Positions 11,964-31,731 of a stretch of 34,915 nucleotides of DNA are shown in pieces (positions within the stretch are counted from its first letter, which is position 1; each line of letters opens with the position of its first letter). The notes beneath the pieces are model-generated. The model had not been told where the DNA came from and made no database searches. It was given only the letters and a program-made list of their open reading frames with translations. Made by a program: the position numbers and the translations under genes. The stretch lies in the IMG/VR virus record IMGVR_UViG_3300042474_000125, positions 1 to 34,915 of that record; one strand, written 5' to 3'. This DNA comes from a virus.

Positions 11964-12925
11964 GTGCGATACCATTCACCTGAGTAGATGTCTTGTTTGT
12001 GATAGCAGTCCAGCAACAGTTGTTCACACCAATAGTACACCTGTGATTGATCTGGACATTTAACTGCGCCATCGCTCATATAAAATTCTTCCAAAGTCTG
12101 TGTCATGGGCGCAGTAAGCGCACCTGATTCTGCGTGACCACCACCCTGTGCTGCGTGAGCACCCACGGCCACTGCTGGCACACCTGCCCATAAACTTTCA
12201 ATGGGCACCATGGAGTGATTGCTGATGGTGCAGAGATAATCCTGTTGTGTCAATCTTTGATACAGTCTGTTGTCGCCAATCTCACGAGCTGATCTGCCAG
12301 GTTTGTCTCTCAGTTCCACTTGCAGTCCCATCTGTTTGCAGCGCTGTGTGACTTCGTGAATCCAGTTGGTCTTGTTGAGATTGTAATACTTTTCAAACAC
12401 CACACCACCTGACGGACACAGCAGCACAGTTTTGCTGCGGGGCAGCACTGGTCTGCGTGGTCCCATGATGTCACTCCAATGAGTGATCTGTCCCTGTGTG
12501 AGTTCACTCAATTGACGATTGATTCTCTCCACTGATTGTGTTGCTCTGGTCACAGTGCGAGGTGTTCTCATGGTGTCACCCTCCACCAGTCTGATAAAAT
12601 TTTTGTATCCACGTGGATTCCATGGGCCTTTGTACAACAGATGTGGCACCGGGTTGTCCCAATAGAACCAGCGTATGTTTCTCTTATTGTATTCACGGGG
12701 ATGATGAAATCTCTGTGCTTCCTGTGGATCCTTGTGACACCACACATTGCCAAACACTATGATGGGTCTGTTGTTCACAAGATCCAAATTTTGATTGGGC
12801 AATCGTTCACATGAACCACCCATGTGTTTCAATTGTATGGCATAGCGATCATCATCAATGGTGGAGATGCCCCAGTGCAGTCCGTGCAGTTCCTTGCGTG
12901 CCCAATTTTGATCTGCTTGCAACAT
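11960..12925 (-). CDS. GT-B-like putative glycosyltransferase
   Basis: 321 residues. The N-terminal half carries IIVFGNVWCH and a basic middle. The C-terminal half has a Rossmann-type strand and turn VLLCPSGG (167-174), then a helix-strand pair, ELRDKPGRS (204-212) and the donor-site-like SNHSMVPIESLWAGVPAVAV (235-254), followed by AHAA. The S--MVPIE-L--GVPAV arrangement is the usual nucleotide-sugar site of GT-B enzymes. I recall similar proteins in marine phages, annotated as glycosyltransferase-like or surface polysaccharide-related. Donor and acceptor are unknown. It overlaps the methyltransferase upstream by 1 bp (TAATG) and the HNH-like gene downstream by ATGA. Confidence 0.6.
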   Translation of the reverse strand: MLQADQNWARKELHGLHWGISTIDDDRYAIQLKHMGGSCERLPNQNLDLVNNRPIIVFGNVWCHKDPQEAQRFHHPREYNKRNIRWFYWDNPVPHLLYKGPWNPRGYKNFIRLVEGDTMRTPRTVTRATQSVERINRQLSELTQGQITHWSDIMGPRRPVLPRSKTVLLCPSGGVVFEKYYNLNKTNWIHEVTQRCKQMGLQVELRDKPGRSAREIGDNRLYQRLTQQDYLCTISNHSMVPIESLWAGVPAVAVGAHAAQGGGHAESGALTAPMTQTLEEFYMSDGAVKCPDQSQVYYWCEQLLLDCYHKQDIYSGEWYRT

Positions 12926-14880
12926 TATTCAAACAATCTATCAAATGTGCTGTGAGGTTTGGTCACAGCAACCATAGGTGATTCAGTTTTGATTTTAGTT
13001 TCAATTGGATTTTTCGCACACCAACCCAGAATTCTTCGATCAGCAATGCTCACATAGTTTGCGTCCAAATCTATGCCCACAAAACGATGACCCAACTCCA
13101 CAGCGGCCATTCCTGTTGAACCACTGCCCATGAACGGATCCAGCACTGTGCTATTTGCAGGTGTGACCAATTGAATTAGATAACGCATCAGTGCCACTGG
13201 TTTCACTGTGGGATGATTGTTGCCCACTGCAGATTTTTTGTTGGGATTATACATTACACCCGTGCCATCCACATCATACATTCCACTGGGGTTGGTGGGT
13301 ATGTGTGCCAATGGATCTGCTTTGTCACCTTTTTTGTGTTCCATGCCTTGATGCCATCTTTCGTGTGAGTCAGTGCTGCATCTGCGTGATCCTTTGGGAG
13401 CAGAATCAGTTAAAGGATTAAATTTTTTGCTTTGTGCATGAGCATCAGTTTGGTTTTCTTTGTCATAACAATCATAAATGTCTTTCAAACCATTTGCACC
13501 AGGCATAGGTGTTAATCGTTTGGGCACAATTTCAATGTCCTGCGATTTGCACCAAGCTTCATAAATTTTGCTTAATCCGTGAGCATACACATTGCCAGTG
13601 GTGGGACACCATATATTTTTGCTTTGTTGATCTGTGCGATTGCCTGCCTCGTCTATAAAGTATCCACCCATGCGTGACAGCATTTCTGCGTGAGTTAAAA
13701 TTCCCACTTGTTCAAACCCTGCGTGTCGCTCCTTGCGTGACACCTTGGGGCAGTAGAAATACTTTTGATAGTCTGGTATATCACCCAACACGTTGCTGGG
13801 ATAGCGGCCTTGGGGATTGGCCTCATACACAGGTGTTTCCTCGTGATTGTGATCTGCGGGAGTGGTCTGTGATTCTAAATCACCCAATCTTGCTCCTGGA
13901 TGGCGGCCTGCTCTAATCACTCGCTTGCCATCTTTGTGATCCCTGTCTTCTGGATTAATGCGTGAGAATGTGTTTTTGTCACTGCCAGTATAGCGTCGCA
14001 TACCTTCTAAATTGTCCTTTTTTTGATCTTTATACTTTGCAGGTTCTCTTTCTCCAAATTCTAATCTGCTCAAACCGTCAGCACCACCTGTGGGTCTTTT
14101 GACACGACCTCGTTGCACTTTGAATCCTGTGCGGCCTTCGTGCATACCAATACCCTCACCTGCTGTGGCCGTGCTCCTCTCCAAAGGACCAGCGATGTTG
14201 TTGATGTAGGTGTTGAGATCTGCTTGATCTTCATAAGGTATTCTGCTCATATCTATGTTCAATGCTCCCACACCGTGCTGAAGCACATTATCTATGGTGC
14301 TGCCTTTCATGGGTTTGCGTGCCATCACTATGGGTTCGTGTCCTGGTTTGAGTGCGGTCTTCCAACCGTGCCATTGTTGGCCTTGGGAAGTTTGTGCTGA
14401 ATATTTTTGTCCGCAATCATCTCTTTTACACTTATACACTGCTGTTTGATCTTTTTTACAAACAGAACATAATCTTTGTCCTGGTGTTTCTCCAAATGTG
14501 AGATTAAAACTATCCGTGCCTTTGAATTTTGGATCCATTTTGCCTGCTCTTTTGTCCAGTGCTTTGCCTATGTCCTGTGCTTTGGGAAATCCTGATGAGT
14601 AGATCCACATCAGTTGATCACGGATCTCAAACCCCACTGATTCAATGTTGGTGGCGAGATGATGATAGGTGCGTGCAGCACTGAATGCCAACAGATGTCC
14701 GCCTGGTTTGAGCACTCTCAAACACTGCTGCCAAGTCTCTAGAGTGCCTGTGTGATTGTCCCAGTCTTTGCCCAAAAATTCTATGCCATAGGGTGGGTCT
14801 GTGATGATCACATCAAAATGTGAGTCTGGGTATTGTTTTAAAACTTCTGCGTTGTTGCCTATGTGTAGTTGATGTGTCAT
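12925..14880 (-). CDS. Large DNA methyltransferase with inserted specificity domain
   Basis: 651 residues. The catalytic DPPY motif is at 28-31 and the SAM-binding DPFMGSGSTG at about 581-590, followed by VGIDLD. This DPPY-first order is that of beta-class amino-methyltransferases (N6-adenine or N4-cytosine); DPPY favours N6-adenine. Between the halves lies an insertion of about 450 residues, probably the target-recognition region, with a zinc-ribbon-like set of cysteines at 138, 141, 151 and 156. The full length is roughly twice that of a minimal beta-class enzyme. No cognate restriction gene is visible, so host-restriction evasion is the likely role. It overlaps the smaller methyltransferase by ATGA. 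Confidence 0.9.
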   Translation of the reverse strand: MTHQLHIGNNAEVLKQYPDSHFDVIITDPPYGIEFLGKDWDNHTGTLETWQQCLRVLKPGGHLLAFSAARTYHHLATNIESVGFEIRDQLMWIYSSGFPKAQDIGKALDKRAGKMDPKFKGTDSFNLTFGETPGQRLCSVCKKDQTAVYKCKRDDCGQKYSAQTSQGQQWHGWKTALKPGHEPIVMARKPMKGSTIDNVLQHGVGALNIDMSRIPYEDQADLNTYINNIAGPLERSTATAGEGIGMHEGRTGFKVQRGRVKRPTGGADGLSRLEFGEREPAKYKDQKKDNLEGMRRYTGSDKNTFSRINPEDRDHKDGKRVIRAGRHPGARLGDLESQTTPADHNHEETPVYEANPQGRYPSNVLGDIPDYQKYFYCPKVSRKERHAGFEQVGILTHAEMLSRMGGYFIDEAGNRTDQQSKNIWCPTTGNVYAHGLSKIYEAWCKSQDIEIVPKRLTPMPGANGLKDIYDCYDKENQTDAHAQSKKFNPLTDSAPKGSRRCSTDSHERWHQGMEHKKGDKADPLAHIPTNPSGMYDVDGTGVMYNPNKKSAVGNNHPTVKPVALMRYLIQLVTPANSTVLDPFMGSGSTGMAAVELGHRFVGIDLDANYVSIADRRILGWCAKNPIETKIKTESPMVAVTKPHSTFDRLFE

Positions 14881-15635
14881 GCTATTCCTTTGTGTTGATT
14901 TCTCTCAAACAACCTGTTTACGGGTTGTGCTAATCTATTCTGTGCCAAGTCACAATACACAGGATCTATTTCTGTGCCTGTGCTGTGCCTGCCCAAACGC
15001 TGTGCCACCACCAGTGTGGTTCCTGAACCTGCGAAGGGATCATACACACTATCTCCTGCTTGAGTGGTCAATAGGATGCAGTTCTCTGCCAGTTGTTCAG
15101 GGAATGGTGCTGGATGTCCCTGTTGTCGCTCTGGGGGGATCACCCAGACGTCCGTGCGATATTGCTCCGTGACCTGCTCTTTATAAACATTAGGTTTTTG
15201 TTTGCACAACCAATAGATGCGTTCCGTGGTGTTGAATAGATAACGCGGATCCATGGCCATGGTTGATTTGCGATGCCATACTATCTCTTGGTAGAACTGG
15301 GCCTGTGTCTTGATCAACCACTCCCAGGGATGACTGCCCTTGCGTGCCCAGTTGCGTATCTTGTGCTGGTAGAATATGGATCCTGTGGGACGGATCATGC
15401 GATAGCATTGATTCACAATCTCTATCTGCCAGGCCTGATAGTCCGCTTCTGGCATGTTGTCCGCATAGGTCTCATAATTGATGTTGCTGCCGCGCCAGAT
15501 GTTCTCGCAGGTCTTGACTCCACCTCTCAGGCCCTTCTTGTTGTAGGGCGGTGAGAACAGGATCATGTCCAAACTATCTCCTGGTTGTGATTGCATCCAC
15601 GCTAGGCAATCCTGTTGATGTAGTTGATAGGTCAT
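14877..15635 (-). CDS. DNA methyltransferase (SPPY type, probable N4-cytosine)
   Basis: 252 residues. Catalytic motif SPPY at 28-31 and SAM-binding DPFAGSGTT at 199-207, followed by TGTEID. This is the compact beta-class arrangement; SPPY is most often found in N4-cytosine methyltransferases, though some N6-adenine enzymes have it. It has a recognisable GSIFYQHK segment (about 86-93). It shares the operon with a second, larger methyltransferase that overlaps its stop by ATGA. Likely role: self-methylation of phage DNA against host restriction. Target site not predictable. Confidence 0.9.
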   Translation of the reverse strand: MTYQLHQQDCLAWMQSQPGDSLDMILFSPPYNKKGLRGGVKTCENIWRGSNINYETYADNMPEADYQAWQIEIVNQCYRMIRPTGSIFYQHKIRNWARKGSHPWEWLIKTQAQFYQEIVWHRKSTMAMDPRYLFNTTERIYWLCKQKPNVYKEQVTEQYRTDVWVIPPERQQGHPAPFPEQLAENCILLTTQAGDSVYDPFAGSGTTLVVAQRLGRHSTGTEIDPVYCDLAQNRLAQPVNRLFERNQHKGIA

Positions 15636-18094: not shown

Positions 18095-18748
18095 ATGTAT
18101 CTCAACGCAAATATACCGCTAATAGAGTGCTACATACGTGGCAATCACTTGAGGGACCAGCGCGATTCACATGACAAATACTTCTGGTGTGTGGTGTTTG
18201 CTGTGTGCAGTCAACCCAAACAAGCACCTTTGTTTCACGCTCTTTTGGATGATGGAGGGGTGTATAGTCGCTTGCCAATTTCAGCATTCTGCCAATCAGA
18301 AGGAGTAAAGGAACAACCTTTGGGTGAATTGGTGCTGTGGGATTCATTTTCATACAATGTGGCAGTGACCACCTATCATCAATTGTCAGGTGCTAAGGTT
18401 CAATTCACCACTCGCAGCAAACAGAAACAAGAAGGCAAGTATCTGTTTACCATTGACTGGACAGAAGGTGATTTCAATGAATTGAATTATGGTTATGCAG
18501 GCCGACCCGACCAACACAAGTGTGGTCACGTGATTGCACAGGACAACGGCAACTATGCCATCCAACCCAACAACAGATGCAGATTCTTTGACAGCAACAT
18601 GGGAGTGGACTGGAGCAAACCACCTGTGATTAACCGATTAGTTAATACTCACACCTGGAGTGTGGAGGACGAACCCCGTTGGACCACCACCGAAACAGAA
18701 GTGGGTGAATACGCATATGAATACCGTGACACCCAAGCGAAAGAATAA
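18095..18748 (+). CDS. Conserved marine-phage-type hypothetical protein
   Basis: 217 residues. Landmarks are IECYIRGNHLRDQRDS near the N-terminus, DDGGVYSRLPISAFC (about 52-66), LGELVLWDSFSYNV, GKYLFTIDWTEGDFNELNYG and NGNYAIQPNNRCRFFDSNMG. I recognise this order (RGN-LRD, LPISAF, LWDS-SY, Y-FTIDW, NG-YA-QPNNR) from a family common in marine phages whose function is not known to me. No good ribosome-binding site precedes the ATG. Its 3' end overlaps the next gene by 32 bases. Confidence 0.75.
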   Translation: MYLNANIPLIECYIRGNHLRDQRDSHDKYFWCVVFAVCSQPKQAPLFHALLDDGGVYSRLPISAFCQSEGVKEQPLGELVLWDSFSYNVAVTTYHQLSGAKVQFTTRSKQKQEGKYLFTIDWTEGDFNELNYGYAGRPDQHKCGHVIAQDNGNYAIQPNNRCRFFDSNMGVDWSKPPVINRLVNTHTWSVEDEPRWTTTETEVGEYAYEYRDTQAKE

Positions 18749-20960: not shown

Positions 20961-21005
20961 TGAACAGCAGTGTTCTTCTACCTTGGTATAACTCACTGCT
21001 GTTCA
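20961..21005. repeat. 12-bp perfect inverted repeat
   Basis: TGAACAGCAGTG (20961-20972) and its exact reverse complement CACTGCTGTTCA (20994-21005), separated by 21 bases. Not next to a T-run, so not an obvious terminator. Candidates are a protein-binding site or an RNA stem. Confidence 0.7.
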
Positions 21006-30495: not shown

Positions 30496-31010
30496 TTATC
30501 TTCTTCTCTTTGTACTCATAGAGTCTGATCTTTTTTTCTCCAGATCATACTCCCATTTGTAATAAGCGCTCCACGTGCTCAATTCTAGGACACTGAAGTT
30601 CATAACTTCTTCAATGCTTTTGCCCAACCTGTCCGCAATCCGACAGATCAAGAGCAGTTCAGTGTCCTCTAGGAGTTTTTTGAGATTGCCTCAACCGACT
30701 CCGGAGCAGCGTTTAAGGCGCCACACACTCTTAAGATCACATTGGGATCAACCTCATTCATAAATGTGAACTTGTCAAATTTATTGAACATGGGTTTGCC
30801 TTCTGGATCCAATGCTTTGGCAATGATGGTTTCCACCAATGCTTCCACAGTTTTACCTTCCTGTTGCAATTGAATGATTCTGCTTTCCACTGCAAAAGGA
30901 TAAGCGGTTTTGTAATAGATATCTGTCTTCCATTCATCCACAGTGATCTTTTTCAATCCGCCTGCTAATCTTTCTTTAAAATGCCCTTTGGCATTGTCTA
31001 ATATACTCAT
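30496..31010 (-). CDS. Tail assembly chaperone GT (frameshift product)
   Basis: The G reading frame (30669-31010) ends ATC TCA AAA AAC TCC TAG. The heptamer A AAA AAC (30681-30675) is in the correct phase for a -1 shift. After shifting, the frame runs on for 59 codons to TAA at 30498-30496, just before the tape-measure ATG. The fusion would be 171 residues. The added part contains RIADRLGKSIEEVMNF, then ELSTWSAYYKWEYDLEKKR, a pattern I recognise from T-type domains (R---L---+-E+--M---E---W-AYY). In lambda both products chaperone the tape measure. The efficiency and any downstream stimulator hairpin are not visible with certainty. Confidence 0.88.
30669..31010 (-). CDS. Tail assembly chaperone G
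   Basis: 113 residues, the unshifted product of the G/GT pair, positioned between the HK97 gp10-like protein and the tape measure. Mostly helical: AVESRIIQLQQEGKTVEALV then ETIIAKAL, ending FMNEVDPNVILRVCGALNAA PESVEAI. Overlaps the upstream gene by ATGA. It coats the tape measure during tail assembly in lambda-like phages and is absent from the virion. Confidence 0.82.
   Translation of the reverse strand: MSILDNAKGHFKERLAGGLKKITVDEWKTDIYYKTAYPFAVESRIIQLQQEGKTVEALVETIIAKALDPEGKPMFNKFDKFTFMNEVDPNVILRVCGALNAAPESVEAISKNS
30675..30681 (-). promoter_or_regulatory. Programmed -1 frameshift slippery site AAAAAAC
   Basis: A perfect X XXY YYZ heptamer in phase with the G frame, located six bases before the G stop codon. 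It allows ribosomes to move into the T extension that ends at 30496. Confidence 0.88.
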
Positions 31011-31320: not shown

Positions 31321-31731
31321 TTATACTGTGCCTACTGTTATGCCGCCTGTGCCTTGGAAGTTCACTGTGGCAGTAATCAAGTCATCATAACTTGCTGTTC
31401 TTGACACTGATGTCACAATCACTTGTCCTGAAAACTTTTGACTGCCTGCTGCTGAACTGGTAATAAAGTCCACAAACAAGTCGTCATTGCTTTCTGGTGA
31501 AAATGCTTTGGTTGCTGTGGTGTGCAGCGTGTCATAGATCACTTCCATAGATCCTGTAAAGTCTTGCAGACCTTGCAAGTAAGTTCTTGAAACATCTCCC
31601 ATAGCTGTGTTTTCAATCACTTCTTTGGTTACTTCCACTGTCCATGATCTGATTTCTGCTATGGCCGTTTCTGCGCCTGCTGAATCGTTTCCGATTTTCA
31701 CTTGGCCTAATTGTCCTGTTAATGTTGCCAT
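31321..31731 (-). CDS. Major tail protein
   Basis: 136 residues with a strong AAGGAG before the ATG. The pattern GQVKIGNDSAGAETAIAEIR then SWTVEVTKEVIENTAMG, LQGLQDFTGSMEVIYD and a final beta run ATVNFQGTGG resembles the TP901-1/lambda-V type tube subunit (--SW+++---+---+++-G----+-G---+-G++-). It polymerises into the flexible non-contractile tube. Its position before the G/GT chaperones supports this. Confidence 0.88.
   Translation of the reverse strand: MATLTGQLGQVKIGNDSAGAETAIAEIRSWTVEVTKEVIENTAMGDVSRTYLQGLQDFTGSMEVIYDTLHTTATKAFSPESNDDLFVDFITSSAAGSQKFSGQVIVTSVSRTASYDDLITATVNFQGTGGITVGTV

Follow-up and report, generated by a model that had tools for sequence, protein, structure and literature searches.

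The tail assembly chaperone gene described here very probably uses a lambda-type programmed -1 ribosomal frameshift, with a long-range stem and a Shine-Dalgarno-like GAGG as predicted stimulators. The gene lies in an IMG/VR virus record (IMGVR_UViG_3300042474_000125; 34,915 bases, 44% G+C), analysed over its whole length and referred to below as the window, whose head and tail module is on the minus strand (Table 1). A sequence-only reading had already proposed a tail-chaperone -1 frameshift, and this proposal is supported by heptamer conservation, an open T frame and matches to PHROG chaperone and tape-measure families. The downstream stem and the upstream Shine-Dalgarno-like (SD-like) element were absent from that reading.

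Table 1. Features of the frameshift region and its neighbours (window coordinates)
Feature	Position	Strand	Basis and remarks
Tape measure protein, 661 aa	28510..30495	-	PF20155 TMP_3, E 1.5e-42; many PHROG tape-measure families
T frame (-1), C-terminal part of GT fusion	30496..30681	-	61 codons from heptamer, then TAA
Stem 3' arm TTCAGTGTCCT	30587..30597	-	fold z -2.98, covariation, synonymous-site constraint; 60-nt loop between arms
Stem 5' arm AGGACACTGAA	30658..30668	-	same basis as 3' arm; first pair 6 nt after heptamer
G gene, tail assembly chaperone	30669..31010	-	ORF, 113 aa; TAG stop 30671-30669; PHROG_344, E 1.3e-4
Slippery heptamer A AAA AAC, zero phase	30675..30681	-	sequence; kept as A AAA AAC/G in relatives
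SD-like GAGG	30689..30692	-	sequence; ends 7 nt before heptamer
Major tail protein	31321..31731	-	PHROG_10528, E 4.6e-18; upstream of G

The chaperone ORF (G) sits directly upstream of the tape measure gene within the tail module. Searched alone by profile, G matched PHROG_344, 'tail assembly chaperone', weakly; 17 of 20 aligned G relatives matched the same family (best E 9.8e-8) and 7 of the 20 matched Pfam family PF16459, Phage_TAC_13 (best E 0.0085). Neither G nor T of the window matched a Pfam family at E 0.1, and a search of solved structures with the G profile gave nothing at E 1. T alone gave a weak PHROG match (PHROG_337, E 0.0032). The best PHROG for the tape-measure ORF was PHROG_3336 (E 5.1e-59), and the major tail protein is the expected partner of T. 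The phage collection yielded no relative of the tail region at the DNA level. Elsewhere in the window, two adjacent, overlapping minus-strand ORFs (12925-14880 and 14877-15635) both match DNA methyltransferase family PHROG_67, as either a duplication or a split gene, and a ferredoxin-like auxiliary gene (18095-18748; PHROG_3704, E 7.9e-54) is on the plus strand, opposite to the structural genes.

The end of G reads TCA AAA AAC TCC TAG, placing AAAAAAC in the zero phase exactly where the sequence-only reading had it. The distance to the stop given there, six bases, is obtained only when counting starts at AAC; three bases separate the end of the heptamer from TAG. Because in-phase A AAA AAC occurs once only, at the G stop, among the 8922 codon sites of the 31 minus-strand ORFs of the window, it is not there by chance. 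The -1 frame (KKLLEDTELLLICRIADRLGKSIEEVMNFSVLELSTWSAYYKWEYDLEKKRSDSMSTKRRR) stays free of stops for 61 codons from the heptamer, equal to the 59 previously reported when counted after AAA AAA, and closes with a TAA at 30498-30496 that directly abuts the tape-measure ATG (30495), with zero bases rather than the supposed two between them. That annotation based on start codons would miss T was likewise correct, and is a practical point: all five annotated phage records of these clades that we examined lack a T annotation, either with nothing in its place or with an antisense gene across it. The public records of DSL-LC06, HTVC202P and HTVC026P leave it unannotated. In HTVC111P (gp45, L084 3406-3558) and HTVC112P (gp41, L403 1906-2052) an antisense 'hypothetical protein', probably a spurious gene, overlays an unannotated T.

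The shift site is conserved in every relative in which it could be read. The best 80 of 83 relatives from a first scan, together with DSL-LC06, HTVC202P and HTVC111P, gave 83 loci; L003 and L075 run off their contigs before the G stop, and the remaining 81 of 81, plus the window, carry a heptamer at that stop. In this first set it is A AAA AAC at 80 loci and A AAA AAG in HTVC111P alone. Three more scans and one alignment scan, which returned largely the same contigs, enlarged the sample to at least 399 loci, many of them repeat fetches of one contig. Seven of the 399 end before the stop and one on the minus strand was dropped; all 391 readable loci have a heptamer (310 A AAA AAC, 81 A AAA AAG), a redundant count that reduces to 170 distinct sequences. 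The search accepted every in-phase XXXYYYZ up to 60 nt from the stop, and all those found lay 0, 3 or 12 nt from it. Conservation of heptamer and T frame in relatives, named earlier as a check on the proposal, was borne out at all 391 readable loci, none of which keeps the G stop while losing the heptamer or acquiring stops in the -1 frame.

By best query, which is a label and not a tree, the distinct sequences fall into three clades, A (with the window), B (with HTVC202P) and C (with HTVC111P), of at least 67, 56 and 47 members, lower bounds that are biased toward the nearest relatives. Among sequences with the end of T on the contig (64 A, 55 B, 46 C), the T frame contains 0 stops and the other two frames average 5.8-7.9. 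In each of the three clades T varies least at the second codon position and most at the third. A pattern scan of genome contigs returned 250 matches and one confirmed relative. This is a chaperone of clade A, complete with heptamer, GAGG and stem, on NZEU01000001.1 (L400), a contig filed under the bacterial Porticoccaceae MAG MED754 that may come from a phage and have been binned along with its host. Sinorhizobium phage phi3LM21 (L401 1860-2003), a distant relative, has A AAA AAC at 3 nt from the stop and a T-like frame 48 aa long; its annotation gives the T region as a hypothetical protein in its own right, p41. A more distant single-cell contig, marine virus AG-345-A17 (L402, about 1501-1900), has a G-like gene without a heptamer, and its T-like frame, read by eye, appears to be at +1 rather than -1, with an assembly error possible.

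Comparison of the relatives indicates that the stem downstream of the heptamer is part of the frameshift signal. The 107 nt from the heptamer fold at -32.7 kcal/mol, compared with -22.9 for shuffles (z -2.98), around an 11-bp helix. The minus strand of the window has just two perfect stems this long or longer whose loop is at most 90 nt: this one and another, at 20961-21005, that is possibly a terminator. A search of the window against Rfam gave nothing at gathering score. When 48 clade A sequences were aligned without regard to structure, pairing was seen in 91.5% of stem cells as against 31-44% in slid controls, five pairs carried changes on both sides, and none of 500 shuffles reached the covariation score of the stem. 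RNAalifold recovered six of its pairs unprompted; it kept only those six pairs of the closing helix and found no conserved inner stems in the loop.

The stem has been maintained through substitution of both arms. Variant arm pairs include GGACAGAGAA/TTCTCTGTCC (L056), GGACGTTGAA/TTCAGCGTCC (L061), GGACATTGAA/CTCAATGTCC (L077) and GGATGCTGAA/TTTAGCATCC (DSL-LC06). On a parsimony tree of 67 clade A sequences, built with the stem arms left out, we counted 10 events that changed both sides and kept the pair, 17 one-sided wobble changes, 5 regains and 18 losses, of which pairs 8 and 10 on the loop side account for 10. At least 9 of 10 pairs are retained in 64 of the 67 sequences, which are related and so do not count as independent evidence. 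In L165, L167 and L168, which have few pairs, GTGTCC is found upstream of the usual place, 55 nt after GGACAC; since it sits in different codons, the 3' arm has relocated and still faces the same GGACAC.

The position of the stem in the junction between G and the tape measure gene would also suit a different role, for example in tape-measure translation or mRNA stability. We give this only a small chance, as some 90 nt separate the end of the 3' arm from the tape-measure ATG, the 5' end of the stem keeps a fixed distance from the heptamer, and a hairpin unrelated to it is found in clade C at almost this spacing (5 nt).

It is also distinctly unlikely that the stem just follows from the conserved T peptides EDTE and FSVLE and plays no part as RNA. 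The protein does favour part of the pairing: when codons were redrawn synonymously 2000 times in 48 sequences (50 minus two members of other clades), the mean was 7.02 of 10 pairs, and for this reason the same test on single sequences was weak (P 0.01-0.08 in the 8 tested). However, the observed value was 9.15 of 10 pairs against a maximum of 7.56 in the redraws. Same-residue codon identity is far above background in the arms and near background between them, with GAG in 63 of 67 and GTC in 61 of 67 clade A sequences at the arm codons (a 50-sequence version of this count covered all clades). Codon conservation is also high at the end of T, as would be explained by overlap with the tape measure gene, whose start appears to sit within the end of T in many clade A relatives, for example L016. 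In L056 and L057 a serine codon changes from AGT to TCT along with a Thr-to-Arg replacement and pairing is kept, which, like the relocated 3' arm and covariation above that of controls, argues against an origin in the protein alone. Measured against synonymous recodings, the fold of the 93 nt downstream is unusually stable in clade A (mean z -2.83; p<=0.05 in 88% of 67), and that of the first 42 nt is unexceptional (mean z -0.82).

Codon choice at the SD-like element, as at the stem, goes beyond what the protein needs. The SD-like codon is GAG in 60 of 63 glutamates in clade A (67 sequences), compared with 15% over the remainder of the gene, and in 41 of 47 in clade C, compared with 37%. Clade B uses GAG in just 4 of 40, compared with 21%. 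The bias toward GAGG is seen in clades A and C, from codon data, at a spacing of 7 nt as against 10 in dnaX.

The three clades carry three kinds of signal. Clade A combines the long-range stem with GAGG 7 nt upstream and a short A run, with six or seven As before C in 64 of 67 sequences (six in the window) and nine in 3 of 67. Clade C, the HTVC111P-type pelagiphages, has A AAA AAG with seven As before G, GAGG, and a different, local hairpin that begins 5 nt after the heptamer: AGCGA and GGTCGCT are present in 47 of 47 sequences, and 42 of 47 have the entire 5' arm AGCGACC. Here it is the first 42 nt that are unusually folded relative to synonymous recodings (z -2.09; 57% of 47) and not the 93-nt stretch (z -0.40). 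Clade B, the HTVC202P type, also has A AAA AAC, within a run of nine As in 56 of 56 distinct sequences, and its 93-nt fold gives no sign of selected structure (z -0.46; 9% of 55). As clade B keeps the heptamer with neither stem nor GAGG, neither element appears indispensable to the family.

The run of nine As raises the question of whether GT could arise by ordinary translation of transcripts with an extra A, made by RNA polymerase slipping on the A run. Slippage of bacterial polymerase on nine As is described as efficient, and Thermus thermophilus dnaX as using it on a nine-A run like that of clade B (PMC5009743). Across 143 kb of sequence flanking the clade B sites there are 5 runs of nine or more As, and the missing structure and rarity of GAG in that clade point the same way. 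These features and that account together make clade B a candidate for transcriptional slippage, although its A AAA AAC can also serve ribosomes and, AAA being the usual Lys codon, the nine As may simply reflect Lys-Lys-Asn. As an explanation of the window, polymerase slippage is very unlikely: the run is of six As, as it is of six or seven in nearly all of clade A, and the selected stem and SD-like elements would act on ribosomes.

It is hardly credible that T is made separately, by re-initiation or from an internal start: T of the window does contain an ATG codon (in EEVMNFSV), but that Met is Ser, Val or Leu in other members of the T alignment, and the in-phase heptamer is conserved in all readable loci.

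We thus favour ribosomal frameshifting, and from the features above we infer the slippage itself, its rate, and the roles of the stem, GAGG and protein domains. In the proposed mechanism most ribosomes would stop at TAG and release gpG. A minority, with two tRNAs on AAA AAC, would slip back one base to AAA AAA and go on into T to give gpGT. The stem (11 bp, with a 6-nt spacer and a 60-nt loop) would meet the ribosome entrance when the heptamer occupies the P and A sites, and most 3' stimulators are reported to start 6-9 nt after the shift site (PMC5009743). The upstream GAGG would pair with the anti-Shine-Dalgarno of 16S rRNA, and both elements would raise slippage, as in the E. coli dnaX signal. 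In lambda, G is described as binding the tape measure and T the major tail protein (PMC5009743); by analogy, G would bind the tape measure here and T would recruit the major tail protein.

Several parts of this signal have precedents. Work by Levin in 1993 and Xu in 2004 reportedly covers gpG/gpGT of lambda and the G-T frameshift conserved among long-tailed phages. As in the window, the lambda gene precedes that for the tape measure, its stop is near the heptamer and T is a short -1 frame. Lambda differs in its heptamer, G GGA AAG (PMC7618472) rather than A AAA AAC, and neither a covarying stem nor an SD-like element is mentioned for lambda in the available parts of two accounts (PMC5009743, PMC7618472). 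Acinetobacter phages Loki and IME_AB3 have AAAAAAC immediately at the chaperone stop, as in the window, with no stimulator described in the part available (PMC5313236). Structures are said to be found often at phage G-T sites, and those of Burkholderia phages KL1 and AH2 have predicted downstream stem-loops (PMC3483164). The KL1 and AH2 stems were obtained by running mfold on one sequence at a time over 35 nt, and the available text gives them no comparative backing (PMC3483164); a 35-nt stretch would miss the window stem, which closes a 60-nt loop. The insertion sequence IS911 shares with the window a large 3' structure, in a transposase gene (PMC5009743), but its structure has constituent stem-loops where RNAalifold finds no conserved inner stems in the window clade.

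A further comparison in layout is E. coli dnaX, which also has an upstream SD-like element, an A-run heptamer and a downstream stem. In the dnaX record (L405), AGGGAG ends 10 nt before A AAA AAG and the stem begins 5 nt after it. Clade C is close to this, with the same A AAA AAG and 5-nt spacer. The window differs in its SD spacing (7 nt versus 10) and in having a long-range stem rather than a compact hairpin, and clade A can be read as a long-range variant of the dnaX layout. In a literature search covering mostly non-subscription papers, we found no comparative proof of a stimulator at any G-T site and nothing on these pelagiphage shift sites. The G-T frameshift, A AAA AAC at a chaperone stop and single-sequence stem predictions are already known. 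What is new is the remainder of the signal, namely a comparatively supported stem, the SD-like element and the differences between clades; the novelty is moderate because single-sequence stem predictions at other phage G-T sites have been published.

The GT:G ratio is described as critical for lambda tail assembly (PMC5009743), and how phages tune this ratio therefore matters. Among the relatives, nature has varied the heptamer, the kind of stem, the SD-like element and the length of the A run at homologous sites, and two of the three signal types occur in cultured pelagiphages (HTVC111P and HTVC112P; HTVC202P and HTVC026P). These sites make it possible to ask directly whether one stimulator can stand in for another, and whether slippage by the ribosome and slippage by the polymerase substitute for each other as phages evolve. 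From these comparisons, a single homologous gene seems to arrive at one fusion product with stimulators that can be exchanged, and perhaps by two mechanisms. A fuller version, which we put forward as a tentative possibility, is that the G/GT fusion is made by exchangeable routes: in clade A by the stem and SD-like element with A AAA AAC, in clade C by a dnaX-like hairpin and SD-like element with A AAA AAG, and in clade B, which lacks both elements, by a move to polymerase slippage at nine As. If this is true, the split between E. coli and Thermus dnaX would be repeated within one viral gene family.
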